Source: Deltaproteobacteria bacterium
Lineage (GTDB): Bacteria > Myxococcota_A > UBA9042 > CAIXZC01
Direction of reading: 5' to 3'
Assembly: GCA_016875215.1 (NCBI GenBank)
Contig: VGRX01000016.1
Coordinates: 1 to 33,307 of the forward strand
DNA: 33,307 nucleotides
In this document: in pieces, positions 9,397-32,855 of the stretch
How the letters are laid out: each line of letters opens with the position of its first letter
Numbering within the stretch: the stretch's first letter is position 1
Program-made: the position numbers and the translations under genes
The notes under the pieces: model-generated
Seen by the model: only the letters and a program-made list of their open reading frames with translations
What the model was told of the DNA's origin: nothing
The model's database searches: none

Positions 9397-12300
9397 ATGG
9401 AACCAGCGGTCGCGAGAATCGAGGAGAACGAGCCATCGTGGCAACCGTTGCCCGGGCAGGCGGTGCAGGTCCGGGGAAGGCCGGCAGCGGTCCTGAGCGT
9501 GGTGGGTGCATCCGGGGCCGCCGGCTCGCTGGTGGAGGTTGCCTACACCGACGGGGCCGAGCCTGGGCTGGAGCGGCTGCTCTGGCGCCTGGAGCTCGGG
9601 ACGTCCGGCGGTCCGGGGGCCAGGTCCCGGCTGCGCGTGGGACCGCCGTCCCGCCTGGTTCCGTTCCGGGCTGCGGTCCGGGCCGCACGCTGGGAGGCGC
9701 CGGCTGCCGGGGTGCTGACTCCCGGGGGACCGCTTGCGCCGCTCCGCTCCGCGGTCCGCCTCGAGGAGCACCAGATGGTGCCGCTGATCAGGGCGTTGTC
9801 GATGCCCCGGGTGAGGCTGATGCTGGCGGACGACGTGGGGCTCGGCAAGACCATCGAGGCCGGCCTCATCGCTGCGGAGCTGGTGCTCCGGCGGCAGGTG
9901 CGGCGGATCCTGGTGCTCTGCCCACCGGCGTTGCGCCGGCAATGGCAGGACGAGCTGCGGTTCCGCTTCGGGCTGGAGCTGTCGATTCTCGATCGGCAGG
10001 CAGCCGAACGGCTGGGCGGGCCGGAGGAGGCGTTTTCCGCTCTCCCCAGGGTGATCGTATCGCCGCACTGGCTTTCCCGGCCTGAAGTCCTGGCAGCGTT
10101 CCGGAGCGCGGCCGCCCGTGATAGCCGGGGGGGCAATCGGATCGACCTGCTCGTGGTGGACGAGGCCCACCATTTCCTGCCCCGGCCCCGGGGCAGCGAC
10201 TCGGACCTGGTCGCGATGCTGCGCGAGGTAGTCCCCTGGAGCGAGCACCGCCTGTTCCTGTCGGCCACCCCTCACGACGGGTTCCGGACGTCGTTCACCG
10301 GTCTGCTCGAGATCCTGGACCCGTTGTCGTTTCGCCGCACGTCCGCCCCCACGGCCGCGGAGCGCCAGCGCATGAAGGAGGTGGTGATCCGGCGGCTCAA
10401 GCGGGAGCTTCCGGCAGGAGAGAGTCGATTCCCGTCCCGCCGGGTGACCGCGTGGCCCGTCGTGCTCCCATCGGCCCAGGAGCGGCTGTTCGCCGCACTG
10501 CGGGAGGCCGCCGGATTCCTGCGCCGCTGCGGCCGGGAAAAGAGACGATGCACGGTCTTCCTGGCCGAAGTGCTGTCCAAGAGGCTCCTGTCGTCGGTCG
10601 CGGCATTTGCTTCGAGCTTTGCAGCCTTCCTCGGCGGGCTCGAGAAAGGGCTGGGCCGTGGCGTGCCGCCCCTGCGCGTGACCGAGGGATCGGTGGTGAT
10701 GCAGACCCCGGGTCCGGACCCGGACACGGAGGTCGCATGGCTTCAGGCCGCGGCCCGACTGGGGGCGTTCCTCTCGCAGTACCATCCGAAGGCCGTGGGG
10801 AGGTTCGACGCGCTCGCTCGAGCGCTGGCTGAAGTGACCGAGCCTGAGGGCGGGTTCGCCGATGCCCGCATCGACCGGCTGGCCGATTGGATCGAGGCGC
10901 ACCTGCGAAGGGACGGGAGGTTCGTTCCGGACGAGAAGGTGGTCGTCTTCACCAGCTTCGTCGCTACGCTTCAGGCCGTGCGCGCCCGCTTCGCCGCCCG
11001 TTGGCCGGCGGAAGGCGATTCCCTGGCGTTCCTGTCCGGGGCCACGGGCGAGGCGGAGCGGTGCACGACGCTGGCCCGCTTCTCGGATCCCGGGTCGGGC
11101 CTTCGGGTGCTGGTCACCACCGACGTGGCAGCCGAGGGGCTCAATCTCCAGCAGGCGGCCCGATATGTCTTCCACCACGACATCCCGTGGAACCCCGCGG
11201 TGCTCGAGCAGCGGGTCGGCCGGGTGGACCGGATCGGCCAGGGGAGACCGGTCCGCTCGTTCCACTTCGTCAGCCCGCAGTCGCAGGAGATGCGGCTGCT
11301 CTCCCGGGTCGTCCGGAAGACCGAGGCGATGGAGCAGGATCTCGGCCGGTTCGGTGAGTTGATCGAAGCACGCGTGCGCAAGGTCGTTGCAGGGTCGGCT
11401 CCTGCGAGAGTCCTGTTTCCGGTCGAGCCCGAGGCCGAATCGGATCCGCCGGTGTGCAGCCAGCCGGCCGTTCCCGGCCTGGCGGAGGAGCTGACGGCAG
11501 CGGCCGGCCGACTGCACCTGAGGTCGCAGGAGGTGCGGGAGGGGCTTGCAGAAGCGCTGTCGCTCGACGGTGCGATGCTGTGCGACGGGGACCTCCCCGG
11601 CCTCTTCCGCATCGAGGGCCGGGGAGGGATCGTGCCCAGGACCCTGGCCCGGGAGGCGGCTCTCTGCTTCGACCGCACGGTCCTGCCCTGGGACGGCCGG
11701 GGACCTTCGCTGGTGCATCCGGGTACACCGCTGTTCGCGTGGATGTGCGCCCGTCTCGGCCGGTTGCGGGAGGGCACGCTGCTGTGGACCGCCCAGGCTG
11801 GAGAGCCCCCCCCCGGCACCGATGCCGCGGTCCTCCTGTTCCTGACCCTCTGGGCCGAGAATCGGCTTCGGGAGCCTCTCGCCCGTGCGCCGGATCTGCT
11901 GCTGCTGAGCCTGTCGGAGCATGCGGACAGATGGAGGCCCGGCCGGGTCTCCACTGCAGAGGACGGGGAGGTCAGAGAGCTCGCGGAACGGATCCTGGCA
12001 TGCGCCGGGGGAAGCGTCCCGGCCGAGCCTCGAGAGACCCTGGCCGGCCCGATCCTGGCCGCGGCACTCCCGCTCCTTCCCCGTCTCGTCGAGCGGCGCC
12101 TCAGCGAGCTTGCCACAAGGATGCGACGGATGCTCTCGCATGGCTACAGCAAGGCCTCGCGCACCCTGGAGCTTTCCTGTCGCCGGCAGGAGAGGGAGAT
12201 ACGCCAGGCAGTCTCTCCCCGCACCGTCGAACGACTCGAGGAGCACCTGGAGCGCCTGGAAATCGAGCGGACCCGCAAGGGTTTCCTGTTCGCGGAGCTG

Positions 12301-12504
12301 GCGTCCACGGCACGGCGCCAGACCGACGAGCTGCGGGAGGAGCTCGATGCGCGGGAACGGCGTGGAATGGAGCTCCTGCGGTCGATCGGAGAGGAGAAGC
12401 GCCTGCTGGCGGAGCGACTCCCCCTGCGCTACTCGCTGGCCTGGCCCCCCACCCTTCGCCTCGATGCGCTGGCGGTCCTGGTGCGACAGGGAGGCCGTTC
12501 ATGA
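9397..12504 (+). CDS. SNF2/superfamily 2 helicase, DISARM DrmD-like
   Basis: 1035 aa; Walker A LADDVGLGKTIEAGLIAAEL, VVDEAHHF (DEAH), LSATPHDGFR, helicase-C motif ATDVAAEGLNLQQAARYVFHHDIPWNPAVLEQRVGRVDRIGQ. N-terminal layout (EEHQMVPLIRALSMPRVRLMLADDVGLGKT) resembles DrmD as recalled. Confidence 0.85.
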   Translation: MEPAVARIEENEPSWQPLPGQAVQVRGRPAAVLSVVGASGAAGSLVEVAYTDGAEPGLERLLWRLELGTSGGPGARSRLRVGPPSRLVPFRAAVRAARWEAPAAGVLTPGGPLAPLRSAVRLEEHQMVPLIRALSMPRVRLMLADDVGLGKTIEAGLIAAELVLRRQVRRILVLCPPALRRQWQDELRFRFGLELSILDRQAAERLGGPEEAFSALPRVIVSPHWLSRPEVLAAFRSAAARDSRGGNRIDLLVVDEAHHFLPRPRGSDSDLVAMLREVVPWSEHRLFLSATPHDGFRTSFTGLLEILDPLSFRRTSAPTAAERQRMKEVVIRRLKRELPAGESRFPSRRVTAWPVVLPSAQERLFAALREAAGFLRRCGREKRRCTVFLAEVLSKRLLSSVAAFASSFAAFLGGLEKGLGRGVPPLRVTEGSVVMQTPGPDPDTEVAWLQAAARLGAFLSQYHPKAVGRFDALARALAEVTEPEGGFADARIDRLADWIEAHLRRDGRFVPDEKVVVFTSFVATLQAVRARFAARWPAEGDSLAFLSGATGEAERCTTLARFSDPGSGLRVLVTTDVAAEGLNLQQAARYVFHHDIPWNPAVLEQRVGRVDRIGQGRPVRSFHFVSPQSQEMRLLSRVVRKTEAMEQDLGRFGELIEARVRKVVAGSAPARVLFPVEPEAESDPPVCSQPAVPGLAEELTAAAGRLHLRSQEVREGLAEALSLDGAMLCDGDLPGLFRIEGRGGIVPRTLAREAALCFDRTVLPWDGRGPSLVHPGTPLFAWMCARLGRLREGTLLWTAQAGEPPPGTDAAVLLFLTLWAENRLREPLARAPDLLLLSLSEHADRWRPGRVSTAEDGEVRELAERILACAGGSVPAEPRETLAGPILAAALPLLPRLVERRLSELATRMRRMLSHGYSKASRTLELSCRRQEREIRQAVSPRTVERLEEHLERLEIERTRKGFLFAELASTARRQTDELREELDARERRGMELLRSIGEEKRLLAERLPLRYSLAWPPTLRLDALAVLVRQGGRS

Positions 12505-15500
12505 GCCGGGGGAGGTTTCCAGGTCGGGACGGGCGGCTCGCCGCGGCGGAAGGCCATTCGCAACGGACTCCCAGGTCGGGACGGGTGCGGGGGATGGTAT
12601 CCGCGCTGGAAGGGATCGTGGCACCGGCAGCGCACGAGTGGACACGGCTTGGGTTGCCGGAAGAGCCGCTGAGGTTGGCAGCGATGCGGATCCTGCTGCG
12701 GCTGGTCGTCATCCGGCGGGCGGAGGGAACGGGGCTGCTGCCCTGTGACGACCCGCTGTACGGGCCGTCCTACTCGCTCTCGGGCCTCCATCGCCGTCTC
12801 CGGGGTGAGCGGCTGGCCGGGGAAGGAAGCCTGGCAGGCCGCGGGCACGCGTGGCCGCGAGTCCAGGCACTGTTCCAACTGGTCTGGGCGGGGAGCGACC
12901 ACCCGGCACTGCCGATCCGGGCGTACGGCGGGGAGTTGTTCGAGCCGGGCCGCACCGGTTCCGACAGCCCGGTCCTGCAGGCGCTTGCCCTGCTCCGGGT
13001 GAACGGTCCCGATGATGCAGGCGTGCTCGAAGTGCTGGATCGGCTGGGGGAGTGCGAGCGTCTGGCCGGAGGGCCTGAAGCTCCGGCAGCGCGCCTGGTG
13101 GGGACGCTCTACGAGGAGCTCCTGGAGTGGCGACTCGAGCTGGAATCGGGGGAGCCGCGGGCGGTGAACGACCGGTCCCGGCGCAAGGGAACCGGCAGCT
13201 TCTACACGCCGCCGGAGCTTGCGCGCGACCTGGTCCGCAGGACGCTCGACCCGCTCCTCGTGGACGTCAAGAACCACCTCCGCCCCCCGGAGGAGCTGCT
13301 TTCGCTTCGCGTGTGCGACCCGGCCATGGGGTCCGGCTCCTTCCTGTCCGCTGCCCTGGAGCACCTCTCCGAGGCCGTCGTGCGTTCCGCGCAGCAGCAC
13401 GGGAGACTCCGTGCCGCGCACAGCGGCCGGGAGAGCAGCGCGGCCACCCTGGTCGACCTGGGGAGGGACATCCGCCTGGAGCTTCCCGGTGCGGCGGACG
13501 ATCCCCTCCTCGAGGAATCCCTCCGGGTTCGCGTCCGCCGTCTGGTGGTCGAGAACTGCCTCTGGGGGGTAGACCTCGATCCGGTCGCGGTGGAGCTGGC
13601 CCGCACCGCCCTCTGGCTCGAGACCCTGGACCGCCGGCTCCCGCTCACGTTCCTCGACCACAAGCTGGTCTCGGGGGATGCGCTGGTCGGGTGCTGGCTG
13701 AGCGACCTGCCGGTCTATCCGCTGTCCGCCTGGCGGCACGAGCCGGCTGCGCCTCAGGTCAACGCAGAGGCCCGCTCCGTTCTGCTGGCAAAGACATCTC
13801 CGCTCCTGCCGCTCAGCGGTTCGGGACGTCCGGAGTCGGTTCGCCGGCGCCTGTCGGGGTGCCTGGACGAGCTGAGGGCCATCCCGATCGAGTTCCCGGA
13901 TCGAAAGCGGGCCGGCTACAGGGCGCGGGTGCTCGGGGACAGCGAGGCCGTGGCGCTCAAGGGGCAGATGGACCGCTGGTGCGCGCTCTGGTTCACGCAA
14001 GGGGGACCGGGGCCGGAGCGTCCTGGACCCCGGTTGTGGTACTCGTGCCCCGATGCGGGCATGGAACCGGCAGCACGAGCGGCCTCGACCCGGCGTTTCC
14101 TGCACTGGGAGCTGGTGTTTCCCGACGTTTTCGAGGGGGAGTTCCCCGGATTCGACGCGCTGCTGGGTAACCCTCCCTGGGAGGTGCTGCGCTCACGGCC
14201 GGACCGCTTCCTGCTGTCCCGCTGGTTCTCGGGCAGGGCCTGTCCCGGCGGTCCCCTCGATGCCCGCTACCGGGCCCTGTCCCGCAAGACAGGGGACCCG
14301 TGCGCTGCCGACGCGGAAGCCCGGTCCGCTCCGTTCGTGGAGCAGGGGGCGTCGGACCACAACACCTATCGGCTGTTCCTGGAGCAGGCGTGGCACCTGA
14401 TCCGGGCAGGGGGACGGCTCGGCTTCCTGGTTCCAGGGGGGATCGCAAGCGATCGGGGGGCGGCCCCGCTGCGCCGGCTGTTCCTGGACCAGGGGGAGTG
14501 GGAGCAGCTCATCTCTTTCGACAACCGGAGACGGCTGTTCCCGGTGGACGGACGTCTGAAGTTCTGCGCGGTGGTGGTGCGCAAGGGTGGCCGGACGGAG
14601 CGGGTGCACGCGTCCTTCGGGAACGAGACGCCCGTGCCTGCGGAAGGGGTCGCCTGGTCCAGGGAGCTGATCGAGGACCACTCGGCTCAGCTTGCGTTTC
14701 CCGAGCTTTCGGGGGGCGAGGAGATCGCCCTGTTCACCGCCCTGCATCGGGCTGGGATTCCGCTCGTGCGATGGCGCCCTTCGACCCGTGCTGCGAGCTA
14801 CGCACGGGAGCTCGACGCGGGAAACGGCGAAGGGCTTTTCGCCCCGGTCCCGGATTGGCTGGCCCGCGGCGCGGTTCCCTACCTGCCCGAGCCAGGCGAG
14901 CCGGCCGCGGACCACCAGGCGGCGGGATTCCCTGCGGCTCTGGATCTGTGGAAGGACCGCGACGGGCTGCTCCTTCCCGTCGTGCACGGAGCCCTCGTGC
15001 TTCCCCACGGCCTTTCGAATCCGGATCCTCGGGAGGGGATCTCGCCGCGCGACCTGATGCCCCTGGACCGGTACTTCCGTGGTCGGGGCCGAGGGCTCAA
15101 GGTCGCGGTCCGCCGCGTCACCAACGCGACCAACACCCGCACCCTCATCGCAGGGCTGGTCCCCGACCTCCCGTGCACGGACAAGGCCGCGGTGCTCACC
15201 CTTCCTGCGGTCGAGGAGATGCTGCTGCTCCTGGCGCTGCTGAACTCGTTCCCGCTCGACTTCGTCGCCCGGCGGATCTGTGCGGGGACGAACCTGGACC
15301 GCCATCACCTGATGCGTCTGCCGATGCCGAGCCTGTCGAACCTCGGCCGCATCAGCTCGTTGGCCGATCATCCGCCAGATCCGCCATGGGGGAGCCTCGG
15401 CTCCGGATCGATCGGGGTTCGGCTGGCCCGGAATGCACTGCGGCTCGGGGCGTGCCACCCGCTCTTCGCCCCGCTCTGGGTTCGCTGCGCCGAATCGTGG

Positions 15501-16061
15501 CCGGAGCTTCTGCAGCGGCCCTGGCATGCCTGGTGGGCGGTGACTCCGGCAACCCGCACGGCGCTGAAGGTCGAGAACGACCTGCTGGCTGCGTCGGCCT
15601 GTGGGCTGGGACCGGAGGCTCTCGACTTGATGTTGGAGGAGTGCGGGCACCCGTCGGAGCGGCTGGCGGACCCGGCCTTTGCCGCGACTCTCGACCGCCG
15701 GGGGTTCTGGCGGGTGGACCGTGAGCGGCCGCCGGAGGCGAGGCACACGGAGCTCGTCCGGACCTTGTCGAGGCCGGCCGGACGCCGGTTCCCGGCGGAG
15801 GGCTCCGGGGGGTCGGCCGATACGGCGCTACCTGCGACCGGCAGGTCCCCTGCGGGCCGGCCCCCGAGCGAATCCGCCACGACTTCGGTTCCGGCCGCGC
15901 CAGGTTGGGAGCAGACGCTGGTTCCCCACCTGGGCCCGCTCCTGGCCCCGTGGCAGGAAGGGCTGGACGCGGCAGACAACTGGAAGCTGTGCCGGGAGAC
16001 AGCCGGTCGCCTGGCGGAGCTCGGCTTCCGGCTCCTGCCTGGGAGAACCGGACTGCTGTAG
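12501..16061 (+). CDS. N6-adenine DNA methyltransferase, Eco57I/DrmMI-like
   Basis: ATGA overlap with the helicase stop; motif I VCDPAMGSGSFLSAALEHL, motif IV FDALLGNPPWEVLRSR, C-terminal TRD-like region. ORF is open from 11454, but ATG 12501 is the coupled start. Confidence 0.88.
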   Translation: MSRGRFPGRDGRLAAAEGHSQRTPRSGRVRGMVSALEGIVAPAAHEWTRLGLPEEPLRLAAMRILLRLVVIRRAEGTGLLPCDDPLYGPSYSLSGLHRRLRGERLAGEGSLAGRGHAWPRVQALFQLVWAGSDHPALPIRAYGGELFEPGRTGSDSPVLQALALLRVNGPDDAGVLEVLDRLGECERLAGGPEAPAARLVGTLYEELLEWRLELESGEPRAVNDRSRRKGTGSFYTPPELARDLVRRTLDPLLVDVKNHLRPPEELLSLRVCDPAMGSGSFLSAALEHLSEAVVRSAQQHGRLRAAHSGRESSAATLVDLGRDIRLELPGAADDPLLEESLRVRVRRLVVENCLWGVDLDPVAVELARTALWLETLDRRLPLTFLDHKLVSGDALVGCWLSDLPVYPLSAWRHEPAAPQVNAEARSVLLAKTSPLLPLSGSGRPESVRRRLSGCLDELRAIPIEFPDRKRAGYRARVLGDSEAVALKGQMDRWCALWFTQGGPGPERPGPRLWYSCPDAGMEPAARAASTRRFLHWELVFPDVFEGEFPGFDALLGNPPWEVLRSRPDRFLLSRWFSGRACPGGPLDARYRALSRKTGDPCAADAEARSAPFVEQGASDHNTYRLFLEQAWHLIRAGGRLGFLVPGGIASDRGAAPLRRLFLDQGEWEQLISFDNRRRLFPVDGRLKFCAVVVRKGGRTERVHASFGNETPVPAEGVAWSRELIEDHSAQLAFPELSGGEEIALFTALHRAGIPLVRWRPSTRAASYARELDAGNGEGLFAPVPDWLARGAVPYLPEPGEPAADHQAAGFPAALDLWKDRDGLLLPVVHGALVLPHGLSNPDPREGISPRDLMPLDRYFRGRGRGLKVAVRRVTNATNTRTLIAGLVPDLPCTDKAAVLTLPAVEEMLLLLALLNSFPLDFVARRICAGTNLDRHHLMRLPMPSLSNLGRISSLADHPPDPPWGSLGSGSIGVRLARNALRLGACHPLFAPLWVRCAESWPELLQRPWHAWWAVTPATRTALKVENDLLAASACGLGPEALDLMLEECGHPSERLADPAFAATLDRRGFWRVDRERPPEARHTELVRTLSRPAGRRFPAEGSGGSADTALPATGRSPAGRPPSESATTSVPAAPGWEQTLVPHLGPLLAPWQEGLDAADNWKLCRETAGRLAELGFRLLPGRTGLL

Positions 16062-16138: not shown

Positions 16139-16849
16139 TCACCGTGACAGCACCCGGTACAGGTTCCTCTTCACGTCCGGGACGTGCCGTTCCAGCTCGG
16201 CGATGAACGCCTTGGTGTCGCGGCGCACGAAGGCCATCTTGCCCGGGCAGCGGCAGGCGGGATCGACGAACTGCTGGGATGCGGCGTAGGCCCGGGTCTC
16301 GTCTTCCAGGACGGTGGCCAGGGGACGGACGAGGGAGAGCTGCCCGTCGAAGAACTCCACCCGGGGGGCCATGGTGCTGATGTTCCCGTGGTGGAACATG
16401 TTCATGAGCAGCGTCTCGACCAGGTCGTCCAGGTGGTGCCCCAGCGTGATCTTGTTGTGCCCGGTGCGAAATGCCATCTTGATGAGCGCGGTGCGTCGCC
16501 GCAGCGCGCAGTAGAAGCAGTTGATGTTGCCCTTGATCTCCTCGTTGATGGGGTAGAACGTGGTCTCGAATGCAAAGCCGTAGCGTTGAGCACGTTCCTG
16601 GATGACCTCCAGGGGAATGCTCCCGCTTCAGGTGATGTCGGTCCGGATCTTGGCCGCGGTGAAGTGGGTATCGGGGAAATGCCCGGGCTTCAGCCAGCCG
16701 CACAGGTCGAGGAGGGTGAAGCTGTCCTTGCCGCCCGATACGCCGATGATGACGCGGTCGCCGGGCTCAAACATCCGGTAGGTGCGGACCGCGTCCAGGA
16801 ACCTCTCCTGGAGCGGCAGCGGGATGGGGCACTCCGTGGACCGGGTCAC
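16139..16849 (-). CDS. TtcA-like PP-loop ATPase / tRNA sulfurtransferase with in-frame TGA; candidate selenoprotein (Sec74)
   Basis: N-half: GVSGGKDSFTLLDL PP-loop, then ...AAKIRTDIT-TGA-SGSIPLEVIQERAQRYGFAFETTFYPINEEIKGNINCFYCALRRRTALIKMAFRTGHNKITLGHHLDDLVETLLMNMF. Both sides are in the same frame. The ORF track splits it into 16628-16849 and 16139-16477. Confidence 0.75.
16595..16617 (-). promoter_or_regulatory. Candidate bacterial SECIS stem-loop (ttcA-like gene)
   Basis: Minus strand TTC-CC-CTGG-AGGTCAT-CCAG-GAA: 7-bp stem with 2-nt bulge, loop AGGTCAT beginning 19 nt after the TGA (16630-16628). Confidence 0.55.
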
Positions 16850-17604
16850 GGCTCGTCCCTACGTGCCTCGGGGGTGACCTGGATTGCTGGCGGGGCCAAA
16901 GCATCGAGCAGGTGGGAGAGCACCTCGAACGGGAGCGTGACGTCCACCAGTCCCCCTCCGGTCCCCACCGCATTCGTGAGCCGCTGCAGGACATCGAGCG
17001 AGCGGACGTCGGCGGCCAACACCCGGGGCCGGATCCCGTAGGCGGCATACAGCGCGGCAATGCGGGCCACGACGGCCACACCGTCCCCGCCCGCATCATC
17101 GAGGCGGCCGACCATGCAGGCGATGGAATGGGGGAAGCCGGGGTTGCGGGAGGCCGGCGGCCCTTCGGTGCACGGTATCCCGTCGCGCCATTCCTGGACG
17201 TGAGGGAACGTGCTCACTGCGAGGGCCTGGACGGGGTCGGACACGGACGAGATGCACACCTCGATTCCCCGAGCCACCAGCACGGAGGCGGCAAACAGGC
17301 TCTCCGGGAGCGGTTTGAGCATGCACACCAGGGTCGGACCGCTCAGCGGTCCTCCGGTCCGTTCCGCCATCCGGGCATCCAGCCCGACCGCCTGGTCGAC
17401 GACCTCGTGTGCGGTCCCCTCCGACATCTGGAAGAACAGCTTCCAGTCCCGCCGACCGGAGGCCACGACGGCCTCGATCACGGCGGCGGGCGTTGCGCCC
17501 CGATCGGCCAGTGCCCCCTGCTGGACGGTCACTCCGCCTACGTACGGCAGAAGCGCAGCGGCCCTGATGTCGCCGGACCGAGCGGAATTCAGGAAGAACC
17601 GCAT
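16846..17604 (-). CDS. Divergent transaldolase / fructose-6-phosphate aldolase-like protein
   Basis: 252 aa; MRFFLNSARSGDIRAAALLPYVGGVTVQQGAL resembles the MxFFIDTAxxxEI...GVTTNPSL start; LVDVTLPFEVL near the C-terminus. Overlaps the ttcA-like start by ATGA. Confidence 0.6.
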   Translation of the reverse strand: MRFFLNSARSGDIRAAALLPYVGGVTVQQGALADRGATPAAVIEAVVASGRRDWKLFFQMSEGTAHEVVDQAVGLDARMAERTGGPLSGPTLVCMLKPLPESLFAASVLVARGIEVCISSVSDPVQALAVSTFPHVQEWRDGIPCTEGPPASRNPGFPHSIACMVGRLDDAGGDGVAVVARIAALYAAYGIRPRVLAADVRSLDVLQRLTNAVGTGGGLVDVTLPFEVLSHLLDALAPPAIQVTPEARRDEP

Positions 17605-17627: not shown

Positions 17628-17891
17628 CTACATCGGGACGGCTTCGACCGCTGCGACCTCGGGGACCACTTCCCGCACCTTGCGCTCGATGCCGAGCTTG
17701 AGCGTGTACATGGCGCCGGGGCAGCCGGCGCAGTGCCCCTTGAGCCGGATGCGCACGACGTTGTTCTCGGTCATCTCCACGAACTCCATGTCCCCGCCAT
17801 CCATCTGGAGATAGGGGCGCAGCTCTTCAAGCGTCGCCTTCACCTTGTCCAGCATCTCTTCGTTGATCATCGAATCCCCCTCCGGCGTCAT
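17628..17891 (-). CDS. NifU C-terminal-domain Fe-S scaffold protein
   Basis: 87 aa; LRPYLQMDGGDMEFVEM...VRIRLKGHCAGCPGAMYTLKLGIERKV (CxxC NifU motif). Confidence 0.92.
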   Translation of the reverse strand: MTPEGDSMINEEMLDKVKATLEELRPYLQMDGGDMEFVEMTENNVVRIRLKGHCAGCPGAMYTLKLGIERKVREVVPEVAAVEAVPM

Positions 17892-18586: not shown

Positions 18587-19252
18587 CTACTTCCAGGTGG
18601 TGCCGCCGGTCTTGGCGCCGGCAGCGAGGCGCTCCTCGTTGAGCTTGTTGAGGATGGCCTGGGCCGCGTCCGATGCGGAATCGATCTCGGACTCGGGTCC
18701 GGACATGATGAGGCGGCCGGTGGCCCCCCACGGGATGACGGTATTGAGCTTGACGCGGGCGGCCTTGAGCGCTTCGTTGCACGCGATGGCCAGGTACGCG
18801 GCCGGCGTCGCCTCGAGGATGAGGATGGAATCGCCGGCGAGCACCATGTTCCCCTTGGCCAGGGCGGTAAACGAGATAGCGTGGTCCTGCTCGACGCCGC
18901 GGATGATGTGGCTGGCCAGGATCTTCACTTCGGCCCGGTTCGCGACCGAGAGGCCGGTCTGGTCGAACACGATGCGTCCGGCCTCGAGCACTTCCCCCTG
19001 GTCCGCGTGGTGGATCTGCATCATGCCGAAATGGCGCTCGGTGACGAGCGAGCCCAGGCGCACCTTGGTCCGCTTCAGGACCAGGTCGATCATCTTGTGG
19101 ATCTCCATGGCCGGCGCCAGCTCGAGGAAGACGGCAGCATCGAACTCAGCCGGGTCGTACACGCGGTTGTCCTTGGCAATGTACTGGGCGAGCTGCGGCT
19201 GCAGGCTGTCGATGAAGGTGTAGGTACGAAGCTCGAATACCTTGTCGCTCAT
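18587..19252 (-). CDS. Tandem BMC-domain-like shell protein
   Basis: MSDKVFELRTYTFIDSLQPQ...; two BMC-like segments, FLELAPAMEIHKMIDLVLKRTKVRLGSLVTERHFGMMQIHH and ILILEATPAAYLAIACNEALKAARVKLNTVIPWGATGRLIMSGPESEIDSA. Confidence 0.6.
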   Translation of the reverse strand: MSDKVFELRTYTFIDSLQPQLAQYIAKDNRVYDPAEFDAAVFLELAPAMEIHKMIDLVLKRTKVRLGSLVTERHFGMMQIHHADQGEVLEAGRIVFDQTGLSVANRAEVKILASHIIRGVEQDHAISFTALAKGNMVLAGDSILILEATPAAYLAIACNEALKAARVKLNTVIPWGATGRLIMSGPESEIDSASDAAQAILNKLNEERLAAGAKTGGTTWK

Positions 19253-19414
19253 CGGATGAGGACCTCCTTTCCCGGTCGGTGGCCCCGAGGCCCCTTTCTC
19301 ATATCGAAATCCCCAGGGGTTGGCAAGGGTTTTTGCGGCATGAGCGGAATCGCCTTGACACGCTCCCCGCTTTTCGTCCAAAGTCCGTCCGTTTCAGCTT
19401 CGGGAGGTGCTGTG

Positions 19415-28554: not shown

Positions 28555-28886
28555 CTCGGCCTCCCTGGCGTTCAACCGGCATCGGCTGTGAACTTAGCGC
28601 ACTTCAGAGCAAAAAGCCAGGAGGGAATCGCCGGCCCCGCCGCCTCCCCCGCCAGGTCGTTTTCCCGCCGTCGTCGCGGACAGAGAGTCGCATCCGGTCG
28701 GATGGAGTTGCGTCCCCAGGTGCGTGCAAACATACCCTCCTGGCCCGAGTGTTCCACCGGGCTGCTGGAGTATTTTCCCGCAGGCGCGTGAAGATATCGC
28801 GACGGCTTCCTCTTGAAAAAGCAACTGTCCCGTGGCACTCTGATCTCCGGGTTGTGGATTCCGGTGCGTTTTCGGGGAGGGTTCGG

Positions 28887-31800
28887 ATGAAGATTCGTTT
28901 CCTGGTTGTGCTCTCGATGGGTCTGGTTGCTGCGTGCTCCCCCGGCGGGCCTGCCGGCGGGGATTCGGAGTCGGACGTTCCCCCGGACGTCATGGTCGGC
29001 GACGGTCCTCTGGGAGAGCTCGAAGCAGTTGAGTTCCCCTGCGGCGACGGAATCTGCGATCCGGAGGCCAAGGAGACGTGCAAGACATGCCCCGCAGACT
29101 GCAACGAGTGTGCGGACGTGTGCGGTGACGGCCAGTGCACGGGCGAGGAGTCCTGCACCGACTGTCCGGGTGACTGCGGCGAATGCTGCGGCAACGGGAA
29201 GTGCGAGGGGGAGGAGACCTGCGGCGATTGTCCGGGCGATTGCGGGGTGTGCCCTCCGGTATGCCCCAACGCCAAGTGCGAGGATGGTCCCGAGTACGGA
29301 GATGAGGCGGAGAGCTGCGTGACCTGCCCCGCGGATTGCGGCGAGTGCGACGACGTGTGCGGAGACGACGAGTGTGCGGGGGCGGAGACCTGCACCGACT
29401 GCCCGGAGGATTGCGGCCCGTGCCTGCCCGAGTGTCCCAACGGGAAGTGCGAAGATGCTCCCGAGTTCGGCGAACAGGCGGAGACGTGCGAGACCTGCCC
29501 GGACGACTGCGGTATCTGCCCGGACGAGGATTGCGGCAACGGGGAGTGCCAGGACGAGAAGGAGAGCTGCAAGAACTGCCCCGAGGATTGCGGCCAGTGC
29601 CCGGCGTGCCCGGACGGGACGTGCAACGGCGAGGAGACGTGCGAGACCTGCCCGGACGACTGCTGCGCTCCCCCCTCCTGCGGGGACGGCAAGCTCGACG
29701 CAGGGGAGGAGTGCGACGACGAGAATCTCGAGCCGGACGACGGCTGCGACGACGTGTGCAAGGTGGAGCCCGCCGCGGCGGAACCGGGGGCGATCATCAT
29801 TACCGAGATCCTCAAGAACCCCGCGTTCGTGGACGATTCGGTCGGCGAGTGGTTCGAGCTCTACAACACGACGGAGTCAGACATCGACATCAATGCCTGG
29901 GAGATCAAGGATCTCGGGGTGGACAAGCATCGGATCTTCAAGGCTGGCGGCGTGGTGGTGCCCGCAGAGACCCACGTCGTGCTGGCCAAGAGCGGCGACC
30001 CGTCGGTCAACGGCGGGTTCGAGCCGCTCTACGTGTACGCCTCCTTCAATCTGTCGAACAAGGATGACGAGATCATCCTGCTCTCGGGAAGCACCGAGGT
30101 GGATGTGGTCGCGTACGACAACGGCGAGACGTTCCCCAATGACGTGGGCCGCTCGCTGTCGCTGGACCCGGACAAGTACGACTTCGAGCTCAACGACCTC
30201 GGGGAGAGCTGGTGCTCCGGGCCGCTCACGTTCGGCAAGGGGGACTTCGGCAGCCCGGGGGACGACAACCCGTCGTGCAGCCCGGTCTGCGGGGACGGCA
30301 AGTGCGCCAAGGAAGAAGGGTGCGAGGCCTGCCCCGAGGACTGCGGCGTCTGCCCGCCGAAGTGCAACAACCAGGTCTGCGAGATGGACAAGGACGTGTA
30401 CGGGGACGCTGCGGAGAACTGCTCGGTCTGCCCGGCCGATTGCGGCCCGTGCTGCCCCAACGGCTTCTGCGACTATGGCGAGCAGTGCGGCACCTGCCCG
30501 CAGGATTGCGGCCAGTGCTGCCCCAACGGGCAGTGCGACAACGGCGAGAGCTGCATCACGTGCCCCGACGACTGCGGGACGTGCCAGCCCATCTGCGGCG
30601 ACCAGGTGTGCAACGGCAACGAAACCTGCGAGAGCTGTGCGCAGGATTGCGGTACCTGTCCGGCGGCAGGCTGGTGCAAGCTGTCCGGCAAGGCGGGGGA
30701 CACGGTGATGTGCCAGCTCGCGCTGGCGGCCGAGAATGCGGCCAGCCCCAAGGCCACCGGAATCCAGTTCAAGATCTCGTGGGACAATGCCAAGGTGGGG
30801 CTGGACAAGCTGTCGTGCATGGCCGGCGGCATCGACATGTGCGACCAGTTCAATACGCTGCCCACCGGGCATGCCCTGTCGGTCGTTCCACCCAAAGCGC
30901 AGTGGGCCGGGAACGTCTCGGCTGCCATCTACTACGGCAACGTGCCTCCCAAGGCGATCACCGAGGCCTACCTCGAGGGGGGCAAGGTGGTGGGGAACGG
31001 ATACGTGCTGGACCTCGTGTTCAAGATCAAGCAGCCGATCGATGCGGCAGCCGCCGTTGTCCCGGCATTCACGGACCTCAAGGGGACCGATGCGGTGGCC
31101 AATTCGCTGACCGTAACGATGGACGCGGGGTTGCTCGTGACGTCGGCCGGCGGGGTGGGGCCGAAGTGCGGGGACGGCCAGTGCAACGGTACGGAGACCT
31201 GCACCACCTGCCCGGGTGACTGCGGCGCGTGTCCGAAGTGCGGTGACGCGAAATGCGACCCGGGCGAGAACTGCAACACCTGCCCCGGCGACTGCGGCGC
31301 CTGCTGCCCCAACGGAGCGTGCGACTACGGCGAGACCTGCTCGACCTGTGCGGCCGACTGCGGGGCCTGTCCGGTCTGCGGCGACGCCAAGTGCAACGGC
31401 ACCGAGAACTGCAACACCTGCCCCGGCGATTGCGGCGCCTGCTGTCCCAACGGCAAGTGCGACTTCGGCGAGACCTGCTCGTCCTGTGTGGCCGACTGCG
31501 GTGCCTGTCCAGTCTGCGGGGACGGCAAGTGCAACGGCACCGAGACCTGCACCACCTGCCCGGGTGACTGCGGCGCCTGCCCGCCGGCCGGCTGGTGCAA
31601 GCTGTCGGGCAACAACGGAGCGACCATCTCGTGCAAGCTGAAGCTGGCTGCCGAGAACGCATCGAGCCCGAAAGCCACCGGAATCCAGTTCAAGCTGAAC
31701 TACGACAACGCCAACGTCAGCCTGGAGAAGCTCTCCTGCATGACAGGCGGGCTGGACATGTGCGACCAGTTCAACGCCCTCCTGTCCGGCCATGCCATCG

Positions 31801-32855
31801 GCGTGGCCCCGCCAAAAGCCTCCTGGGCCGGCTCGTTGTCGGTGGCGATCTACTACAGCAACGTGCCGCCCAAGTCGATCACCGACGCGTACATGAACGG
31901 CCTGGTGGTCGTGGGCAACGCAGACGTGCTCGACCTCGTGTTCAAGCTCAAGACGAACATCCCGGCGCAGTCTCCGGTCACGCCGCTTTTCAGCGGCCTG
32001 ACGGCCACTGACGCCGGCGCCAACCCCCTGACCATGACATTCAAGGACGGCCTGTTCACCACCGCAGCGGCGGGGGCGGCCCCGAAGTGCGGGGATGCCC
32101 TGTGCAACGGAACGGAGACCTGCAGCACCTGCCCCGGCGATTGCGGCGCCTGCTGTCCCAACGGCAAAAACGACTTCGGCGAGACCTGCTCCACCTGTGC
32201 GGCGGACTGCGGCGCATGCCCGGTCTGCGGCGACGGCAAGTGCAACGGGACCGAGACGTGCGGGACCTGCCCCTCCGACTGCGGCGCCTGCCCGGTCTGC
32301 GGCGACGGCAAGTGCAACGGGACCGAGACGTGCGGGACCTGCCCCTCCGACTGCGGCGCGTGTCCGACCGGCTGGTGCTCCGTGTCCGGCAACGCGGGGA
32401 CCACCGTCAACTGCAAGCTCAAGATCGCTGCGACCAGCAATACCTCCCCCAAGGCCACCGGAATCCAGTTCAAGGTGGGCTACGACTCGACCAAGGTCTC
32501 CTTGGAGAAGTTCTCGTGCCTGATGGGCGCGCTCGACATGTGCGACCAGTTCAACGCCTTGCTCTCCGGCCACACGCTGAGCGTGGCCCCACCCAAGGGG
32601 CAGTGGGCCGGCAACGTGTCCGTGGCCATCTACTACGGGCAGGTACCCCCCAAGGCGATTACGGAGGCGTACCTCTCGGGCGGAGTGGTCACCGGGAGCG
32701 CTGACGTGCTCGACATCGTGTTCAAGCTGACGCAGACGGTTTCGGCCGGCTCACCGGTCCAGGTGAACCTGACCGACATGGTTGGAACGGACGCCACAGC
32801 GAATTCGCTGACCGTGACATTGCAGAATGGGGTGCTGGTCACTTCAAAGCCATAA
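28887..32855 (+). CDS. Secreted lipoprotein-like Cys-rich multimodular protein: 23 CGDGxCNGxETCxTCPxDCGxC units, one DUF4215-like unit, one LTD domain, three cohesin-like modules
   Basis: Signal MKIRFLVVLSMGLVAAC; DUF4215-like CGDGKLDAGEECDDENLEPDDGCDDVC; LTD IIITEILKNPAFVDDSVGEWFELYNTTESDIDINAWEIKD; three GWCxxSG...ATGIQFKxxxDxxKVxLxKxSC...VLDLVFK modules. Confidence 0.8.
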   Translation: MKIRFLVVLSMGLVAACSPGGPAGGDSESDVPPDVMVGDGPLGELEAVEFPCGDGICDPEAKETCKTCPADCNECADVCGDGQCTGEESCTDCPGDCGECCGNGKCEGEETCGDCPGDCGVCPPVCPNAKCEDGPEYGDEAESCVTCPADCGECDDVCGDDECAGAETCTDCPEDCGPCLPECPNGKCEDAPEFGEQAETCETCPDDCGICPDEDCGNGECQDEKESCKNCPEDCGQCPACPDGTCNGEETCETCPDDCCAPPSCGDGKLDAGEECDDENLEPDDGCDDVCKVEPAAAEPGAIIITEILKNPAFVDDSVGEWFELYNTTESDIDINAWEIKDLGVDKHRIFKAGGVVVPAETHVVLAKSGDPSVNGGFEPLYVYASFNLSNKDDEIILLSGSTEVDVVAYDNGETFPNDVGRSLSLDPDKYDFELNDLGESWCSGPLTFGKGDFGSPGDDNPSCSPVCGDGKCAKEEGCEACPEDCGVCPPKCNNQVCEMDKDVYGDAAENCSVCPADCGPCCPNGFCDYGEQCGTCPQDCGQCCPNGQCDNGESCITCPDDCGTCQPICGDQVCNGNETCESCAQDCGTCPAAGWCKLSGKAGDTVMCQLALAAENAASPKATGIQFKISWDNAKVGLDKLSCMAGGIDMCDQFNTLPTGHALSVVPPKAQWAGNVSAAIYYGNVPPKAITEAYLEGGKVVGNGYVLDLVFKIKQPIDAAAAVVPAFTDLKGTDAVANSLTVTMDAGLLVTSAGGVGPKCGDGQCNGTETCTTCPGDCGACPKCGDAKCDPGENCNTCPGDCGACCPNGACDYGETCSTCAADCGACPVCGDAKCNGTENCNTCPGDCGACCPNGKCDFGETCSSCVADCGACPVCGDGKCNGTETCTTCPGDCGACPPAGWCKLSGNNGATISCKLKLAAENASSPKATGIQFKLNYDNANVSLEKLSCMTGGLDMCDQFNALLSGHAIGVAPPKASWAGSLSVAIYYSNVPPKSITDAYMNGLVVVGNADVLDLVFKLKTNIPAQSPVTPLFSGLTATDAGANPLTMTFKDGLFTTAAAGAAPKCGDALCNGTETCSTCPGDCGACCPNGKNDFGETCSTCAADCGACPVCGDGKCNGTETCGTCPSDCGACPVCGDGKCNGTETCGTCPSDCGACPTGWCSVSGNAGTTVNCKLKIAATSNTSPKATGIQFKVGYDSTKVSLEKFSCLMGALDMCDQFNALLSGHTLSVAPPKGQWAGNVSVAIYYGQVPPKAITEAYLSGGVVTGSADVLDIVFKLTQTVSAGSPVQVNLTDMVGTDATANSLTVTLQNGVLVTSKP
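32217..32360 (+). repeat. Near-perfect 72-bp tandem duplication in coding sequence
   Basis: Units 32217-32288 and 32289-32360 differ only at the last base; each encodes one 24-aa Cys-rich unit. Confidence 0.95.

Follow-up and report, generated by a model that had tools for sequence, protein, structure and literature searches.

In this study, we analysed a 236-residue PP-loop protein with TtcA-like motifs, whose gene lies in the window (the whole 33,307-nt stretch of DNA under analysis), and found that its codon 74 is an in-frame UGA that almost certainly encodes selenocysteine (Sec). The Sec reading of this codon is strongly supported by four independent lines, namely comparison with related genes, selection, the Sec machinery of the genome and the SECIS hairpin. 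The gene appears to represent a branch of the PP-loop thiolases that contains Sec, and it is a candidate for a new selenoprotein family, as a catalogue of May 2026 listing 119 prokaryotic selenoprotein families has no PP-loop ATP pyrophosphatase/ATPase or tRNA thiolase among them (PMC13188914). Similarly, no PP-loop or thiolase selenoprotein was found in earlier surveys, the deep-Sep paper or the published, openly readable articles searched. It would be the first selenoprotein family placed in the Fe-S sulfur-transfer (tRNA-thiolase-like) class, and would bring Sec into the active-site loop of an Fe-S enzyme that inserts sulfur and is not a redox enzyme, whereas known selenoproteins are mostly redox proteins.

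The gene, its neighbourhood and its relatives

The sequence-only reading had described one continuous frame split by a single TGA, with SGGKDS upstream and NCFYC, GHHLDDLVETLLMNMF and PACRCPG downstream, and translation bore this out: the frame is intact apart from that one internal codon (Table 1), and the motifs are all in their places, NCFYC at 16522-16508 (-), followed by GHHLDDLVETLLMNMF and then by PACRCPG. In the list of open reading frames made with the standard code (table 11), the gene is reduced to a 112-residue tail, which illustrates how conventional gene prediction truncates such Sec genes at their UGA.

Table 1. Features of the Sec gene and its upstream neighbours in the window.
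Feature	Coordinates	Strand	Basis or remark
CDS of the 236-residue PP-loop, TtcA-like predicted selenoprotein	16139..16849	-	GTG start, terminal TGA
In-frame TGA, codon 74, read as Sec74	16628..16630	-	TGA in G001, Cys in G002
Putative SECIS stem-loop directly 3' of the UGA	16582..16627	-	folding and shuffles
Putative SECIS apical hairpin, CCUGG-AGGUCAU-CCAGG	16597..16613	-	loop motif as behind the selD UGA
PP-loop SGGKDS, residues 38-43, ATP pyrophosphatase motif	16721..16738	-	translation, alignment
CFYC, Cys111 and Cys114	16508..16519	-	in register with [4Fe-4S] ligands of TtuA/NcsA
CRC, Cys199 and Cys201	16247..16255	-	Cys201 invariant, in register with third cluster ligand
Transaldolase/fructose-6-phosphate-aldolase-like gene	16846..17604	-	Pfam 24 bits, just below cut-off
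NifU C-terminal-domain (Nfu-type) Fe-S carrier gene	17628..17891	-	23 nt upstream of the aldolase-like gene

At its GTG start, the Sec gene overlaps with the stop codon of the aldolase-like gene upstream of it, and the same overlapping pair occurs in the two nearest relatives described below. The Nfu gene, whose adjacency was seen in the window (the contigs of the other genomes end at that point), is compatible with an Fe-S-dependent enzyme. Further features of the window include a DrmD-like SNF2 helicase and a neighbouring DrmMI/type IIG-like DNA methylase, at 9397-12504 (+) and ~12639-16061 (+), respectively, which by PADLOC resemble a DISARM-type defence arrangement; this pair is also convergent to the Sec gene in the related genome G001 (L051:1258-7705). 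In addition, a bacterial microcompartment (BMC) domain protein is encoded at 18590-19381 (-) (25.8 bits, cut-off 24.5), with no other shell genes nearby, and a very long protein is encoded at 28749-32855 (+) in which many CGDGxCNGxETCxTCPxDCGxCP repeats alternate, as judged by eye, with cohesin-like stretches.

Comparison was made with a sample of 110 related genomes (the genome of the window is denoted G000). The two nearest genes belong to G001 and G002, members of the same family that are assigned to two further genera. The G001 gene (58% identity) has a TGA at the identical codon, KIRTDIT-U-SGSIP, and the G002 gene (54% identity) has TGC, for cysteine, at the Sec column, VQTDIT-C-SGSIP. 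An alignment of homologues, the check proposed with the sequence-only reading, consequently has Sec or Cys at column 74. The recurrence of the TGA in another genus, at a synonymous divergence of ~0.9, is beyond chance. Between the window gene and the G001 gene, dN and dS were 0.37 and 0.96, respectively, upstream of the TGA and 0.35 and 0.91 downstream of it. The resulting dN/dS of ~0.38 on both sides indicates purifying selection, and therefore that protein-level selection still acts on the segment past the TGA.

The window gene and that of G001 are the only two Sec copies in the genomes sampled, and G003, the fourth genome of the family, is without a match to the Sec gene. Neither a further Sec copy nor a closer relative was found in viral contigs, plasmids or a Chloroflexota sample, and a scan of genome contigs returned only two loci, a distant Chloroflexota relative and a TilS-like Omnitrophota gene. 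G002 alone was counted as a firm Cys homologue; the cysteines of two other relatives, G053 and G004, fall in the Sec column in a six-row alignment and one to two columns off it in an alignment of 87 rows. The G053 gene, a more distant relative with a Cys loop, immediately follows thiE- and thiL-like genes (L054:3163-5968), a possible hint that this branch is connected with thiamine or a thio-cofactor. An Omnitrophota relative (G380:C58, L113) has a frame change just past the Sec/Cys column (LDIS.. / ..QCVNKERL), which is probably an assembly error.

Selenocysteine machinery and the SECIS hairpin

The genome of the window was also examined for Sec machinery, as had been suggested with the sequence-only reading, and SelA, SelB, SelD and tRNA-Sec are all present. 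SelA was matched with 558 bits, SelB with 298 bits close to a contig end, and tRNA-Sec with 79 bits and the anticodon TCA, while SelD is itself a selenoprotein with an in-frame TGA at the known Sec site, AGUAAK (G000:C96, L049). In G001, tRNA-Sec is present, as is SelA, the latter partial at the end of a contig. SelA was found in all six checked genomes with closer clade relatives, as well as in 240 of the 379 phylum genomes sampled, indicating that use of Sec is widespread there. A phylogenetic link between the subfamily and the Sec trait was considered and dropped because SelA is this common across the phylum.

The loop AGGTCAT, which had been placed 19 nt after the TGA from the letters alone, is there, within the hairpin CCUGG-AGGUCAU-CCAGG, and begins 19-20 nt past the UGA. 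Together with its lower stem, the element (49 nt) folds with -24.0 kcal/mol (z -4.1), and none of 200 shuffles was as stable. The G001 gene has a hairpin in the same register, CGUGG-AGGUCCU-CCGCG, in which a C-G pair of the stem is exchanged for G-C relative to the window gene; its apical hairpin is stable, but the whole region of 45-56 nt is no better than shuffles. In the window's genome, selD has a hairpin of the same kind, GCGC-AGGUCCU-GCGC, 31 nt past its UGA. Both UGA copies and selD therefore have the AGGUC[A/C]U loop in common, whereas the Cys gene of G002 lacks it and has no fitting SECIS hairpin in the corresponding region.

We also applied by script the published constraints for bacterial SECIS elements (bSECIS), which are a loop of 3-9 nt with a G within its first two positions, a stem of 4-16 bp, a spacing of 16-37 nt and an energy of -7.5 kcal/mol or lower (PMC13188914). 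The hairpins of the window gene (-8.7 kcal/mol, spacing 20, loop 5, 6 bp) and of the G001 gene (-8.7 kcal/mol, spacing 21, loop 3, 7 bp) both lie within these limits, in agreement with the SECIS proposed by the sequence-only reading. However, the bare model is passed by 14% of codon windows in the genes of the window and by 17-22% of synonymous shuffles, so that a hairpin within these limits is not by itself strong evidence. A hairpin with AGGUC at its apex is rarer: among the 3842 codon windows examined in eight coding sequences of the window, the only one is that behind this TGA (the single match comprises eight overlapping codon windows). The loop alone is nevertheless only suggestive because Glu-Val codons (GAG GTC) favour AGGUC at this site, and the weight lies on its reappearance past the UGA of the G001 gene and of selD. 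Rfam returned no match for this putative SECIS, and synonymous sites of the window and G001 genes showed no extra conservation across it (pS 0.52 versus 0.53 downstream).

Protein class and the position of residue 74

The Sec protein matched the PP-loop family ATP_bind_3 in Pfam (53.8 bits, cut-off 27), and its best NCBIfam match was TtcA (NF007972) at 146.4 bits, below the equivalog cut-off of 272. It does not have the DQxxPG loop after strand 2 that members of the TtcA clade have at that place, and has DITUSGSIP there instead. A tree built from 21 sequences grouped the genes of the window, G001 and G002 in a 99/99 clade separate from that of TtcA, and a search of the genome of the window at E 1e-10 yielded no second TtcA-like gene. 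The earlier identification as TtcA-like therefore stands as regards the motifs and not as regards TtcA proper, from which the protein is separated by its score and by its own clade. Cys111, Cys114 and Cys201 are invariant in alignment A1 and in register with the cluster cysteines of TtuA and NcsA, enzymes in which three cysteines hold a [4Fe-4S] cluster (PMC10067955). An AlphaFold model built with six aligned sequences (mean pLDDT 82, pTM 0.82) had TtuA and NcsA as its top 17 Foldseek matches in the PDB, with TM scores of 0.70-0.76. From alignment and predicted fold, we regard the Sec protein as a member of the TtcA/TtuA superfamily that is TtcA-like yet not a proven TtcA, and consider it likely to catalyse a reaction of the [4Fe-4S] PP-loop thiolase type.

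In the model, Sec74 is in a less confidently predicted loop (pLDDT ~64) between a strand of residues 62-70 and a helix of residues 80-89. Profile alignment to solved structures matches the Sec column to the glycine of NLGISGYS in Pyrococcus horikoshii TtuA and of NEGIEGYR in Methanococcus maripaludis NcsA, which lies between Leu81 and Ser87 in the former and between Glu88 and Arg94 in the latter (numbering derived by fitting the letters printed in the paper to its positions). These residues are reported as second-sphere residues of the catalytic site beside the cluster (PMC10067955). It is by alignment, rather than by a solved structure, that Sec74 is placed at the active site.

Proposed chemistry, its alternatives and known systems

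The explanation that we consider probable as a whole, on the basis of the alignments and the predicted fold, is a Sec relay in a PP-loop enzyme that resembles TtcA, TtuA and NcsA and depends on a [4Fe-4S] cluster. SelB and tRNA-Sec would decode the UGA at codon 74 by means of the AGGUC-loop SECIS just downstream. The enzyme would most likely use ATP to adenylate a base, whether of tRNA or of some other substrate, after which sulfur, or possibly selenium, would take the place of the activated oxygen. The sulfur would bind to a [4Fe-4S] cluster that has an open iron, and Sec74, or Cys in the sister form, may act as a chalcogen relay that accepts sulfur as a selenylsulfide (-Se-S-) and passes it to the cluster's open iron or directly to the adenylated base. 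Within the same scheme, Sec74 or Cys could alternatively protect or ligate the open iron. As to the separate parts, a role of Sec74 as chalcogen carrier is a tentative proposal, and the specific version in which a selenylsulfide or perselenide on Sec74, beside the cluster, puts sulfur or selenium into the adenylated base is more doubtful still.

Somewhat less probable again is that Sec74 is real but serves in redox protection or cluster ligation, with the sulfur coming from cluster-bound sulfide alone. Sec74 or Cys could close on the unique iron, or Sec74 could form a selenylsulfide with Cys199, as an on/off switch. The extra Cys199 of the CRC motif, which is found in the clade of the Sec gene and not in canonical TtcA, would suit this role, as would the use of a cluster-bound hydrosulfide by TtuA and NcsA (PMC10067955) and the view that most known selenoproteins are redox proteins (PMC13188914). 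However, the relatives in G053 and G004 have a loop Cys without the CRC motif, and a pairing with Cys199 therefore does not hold throughout. Transfer of selenium instead of sulfur, with Sec74 as carrier and a seleno-modified nucleoside or cofactor as product, was also raised in the sequence-only reading, and we consider it improbable. The presence of SelA in each of the six checked genomes with closer relatives implies that selenophosphate is available to it, but with SelA so frequent in the phylum this co-occurrence means little. Known tRNA selenation, moreover, runs through YbbB/SelU, and we know of no seleno-nucleoside of the kind that would be made.

The readings in which codon 74 is not Sec are much weaker. 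The assembly is a draft metagenome of 857 contigs, which could favour a true stop, whether in a pseudogene, through sequencing error or in a truncated two-part gene. Such a stop is very improbable given that the TGA is kept across genera with equal selection on both sides, that the cysteine of G002 is exactly in the Sec column, that the SECIS matches the bacterial model and that the first ATG of the downstream frame comes only past the cluster CxxC. Reassignment of TGA (for example to Trp), or readthrough without Sec, has no point in its favour that we found and is of negligible probability, since TGA is an ordinary stop in the window, where it ends both the upstream gene and the Sec gene, relatives carry Cys and not Trp at the column, and the genome has the full Sec machinery.

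The Sec reading agrees with known Sec genes in its arrangement: in E. coli fdhF, whose SECIS has an AGGUC loop, and in selD of the window's genome, an apical hairpin with GGU at the loop likewise lies 16-37 nt past the UGA. Among PP-loop enzymes, LarE, the sulfur insertase of the nickel-pincer cofactor, is also a sulfur transferase, one kind of which sacrifices the sulfur of a cysteine while others use CxxC-C or a [4Fe-4S] cluster (PMC8584467, PMC9283937). It differs in being only a distant fold match to the model of the Sec protein (TM 0.42-0.50). Its sulfur cysteine (Cys176 in the naming of the solved variants) is not known to lie within the strand-2 loop.

TtcA (NF007972) has in common with the Sec protein the SGGKDS PP-loop, the CxxC and third cysteine, and a similar length and order of motifs, but its third cysteine is in CxxCGS rather than CRC. 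Its canonical loop has Gln or His and no Cys, where the Sec protein has Sec, and therefore Sec or Cys is not required for TtcA chemistry itself. The closest solved structures by profile and fold are the [4Fe-4S] tRNA uridine thiolases TtuA and NcsA/Ctu1/Ncs6, whose three cluster cysteines and GH-x-LDD motif are in register with those of the Sec protein. Identity to them is low (19-26%), however, and they have Zn-finger ends, which the 236-residue Sec protein does not, as well as a loop Gly, functioning without Cys or Sec at that place. A testable question for the superfamily is whether sulfur is handed on by a chalcogen of the protein or travels over the cluster alone, and the natural Sec and Cys versions at one position provide a ready comparison. 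If true, a mechanism with Sec as carrier would stand between those of the cluster-only and the Cys-persulfide thiolases.
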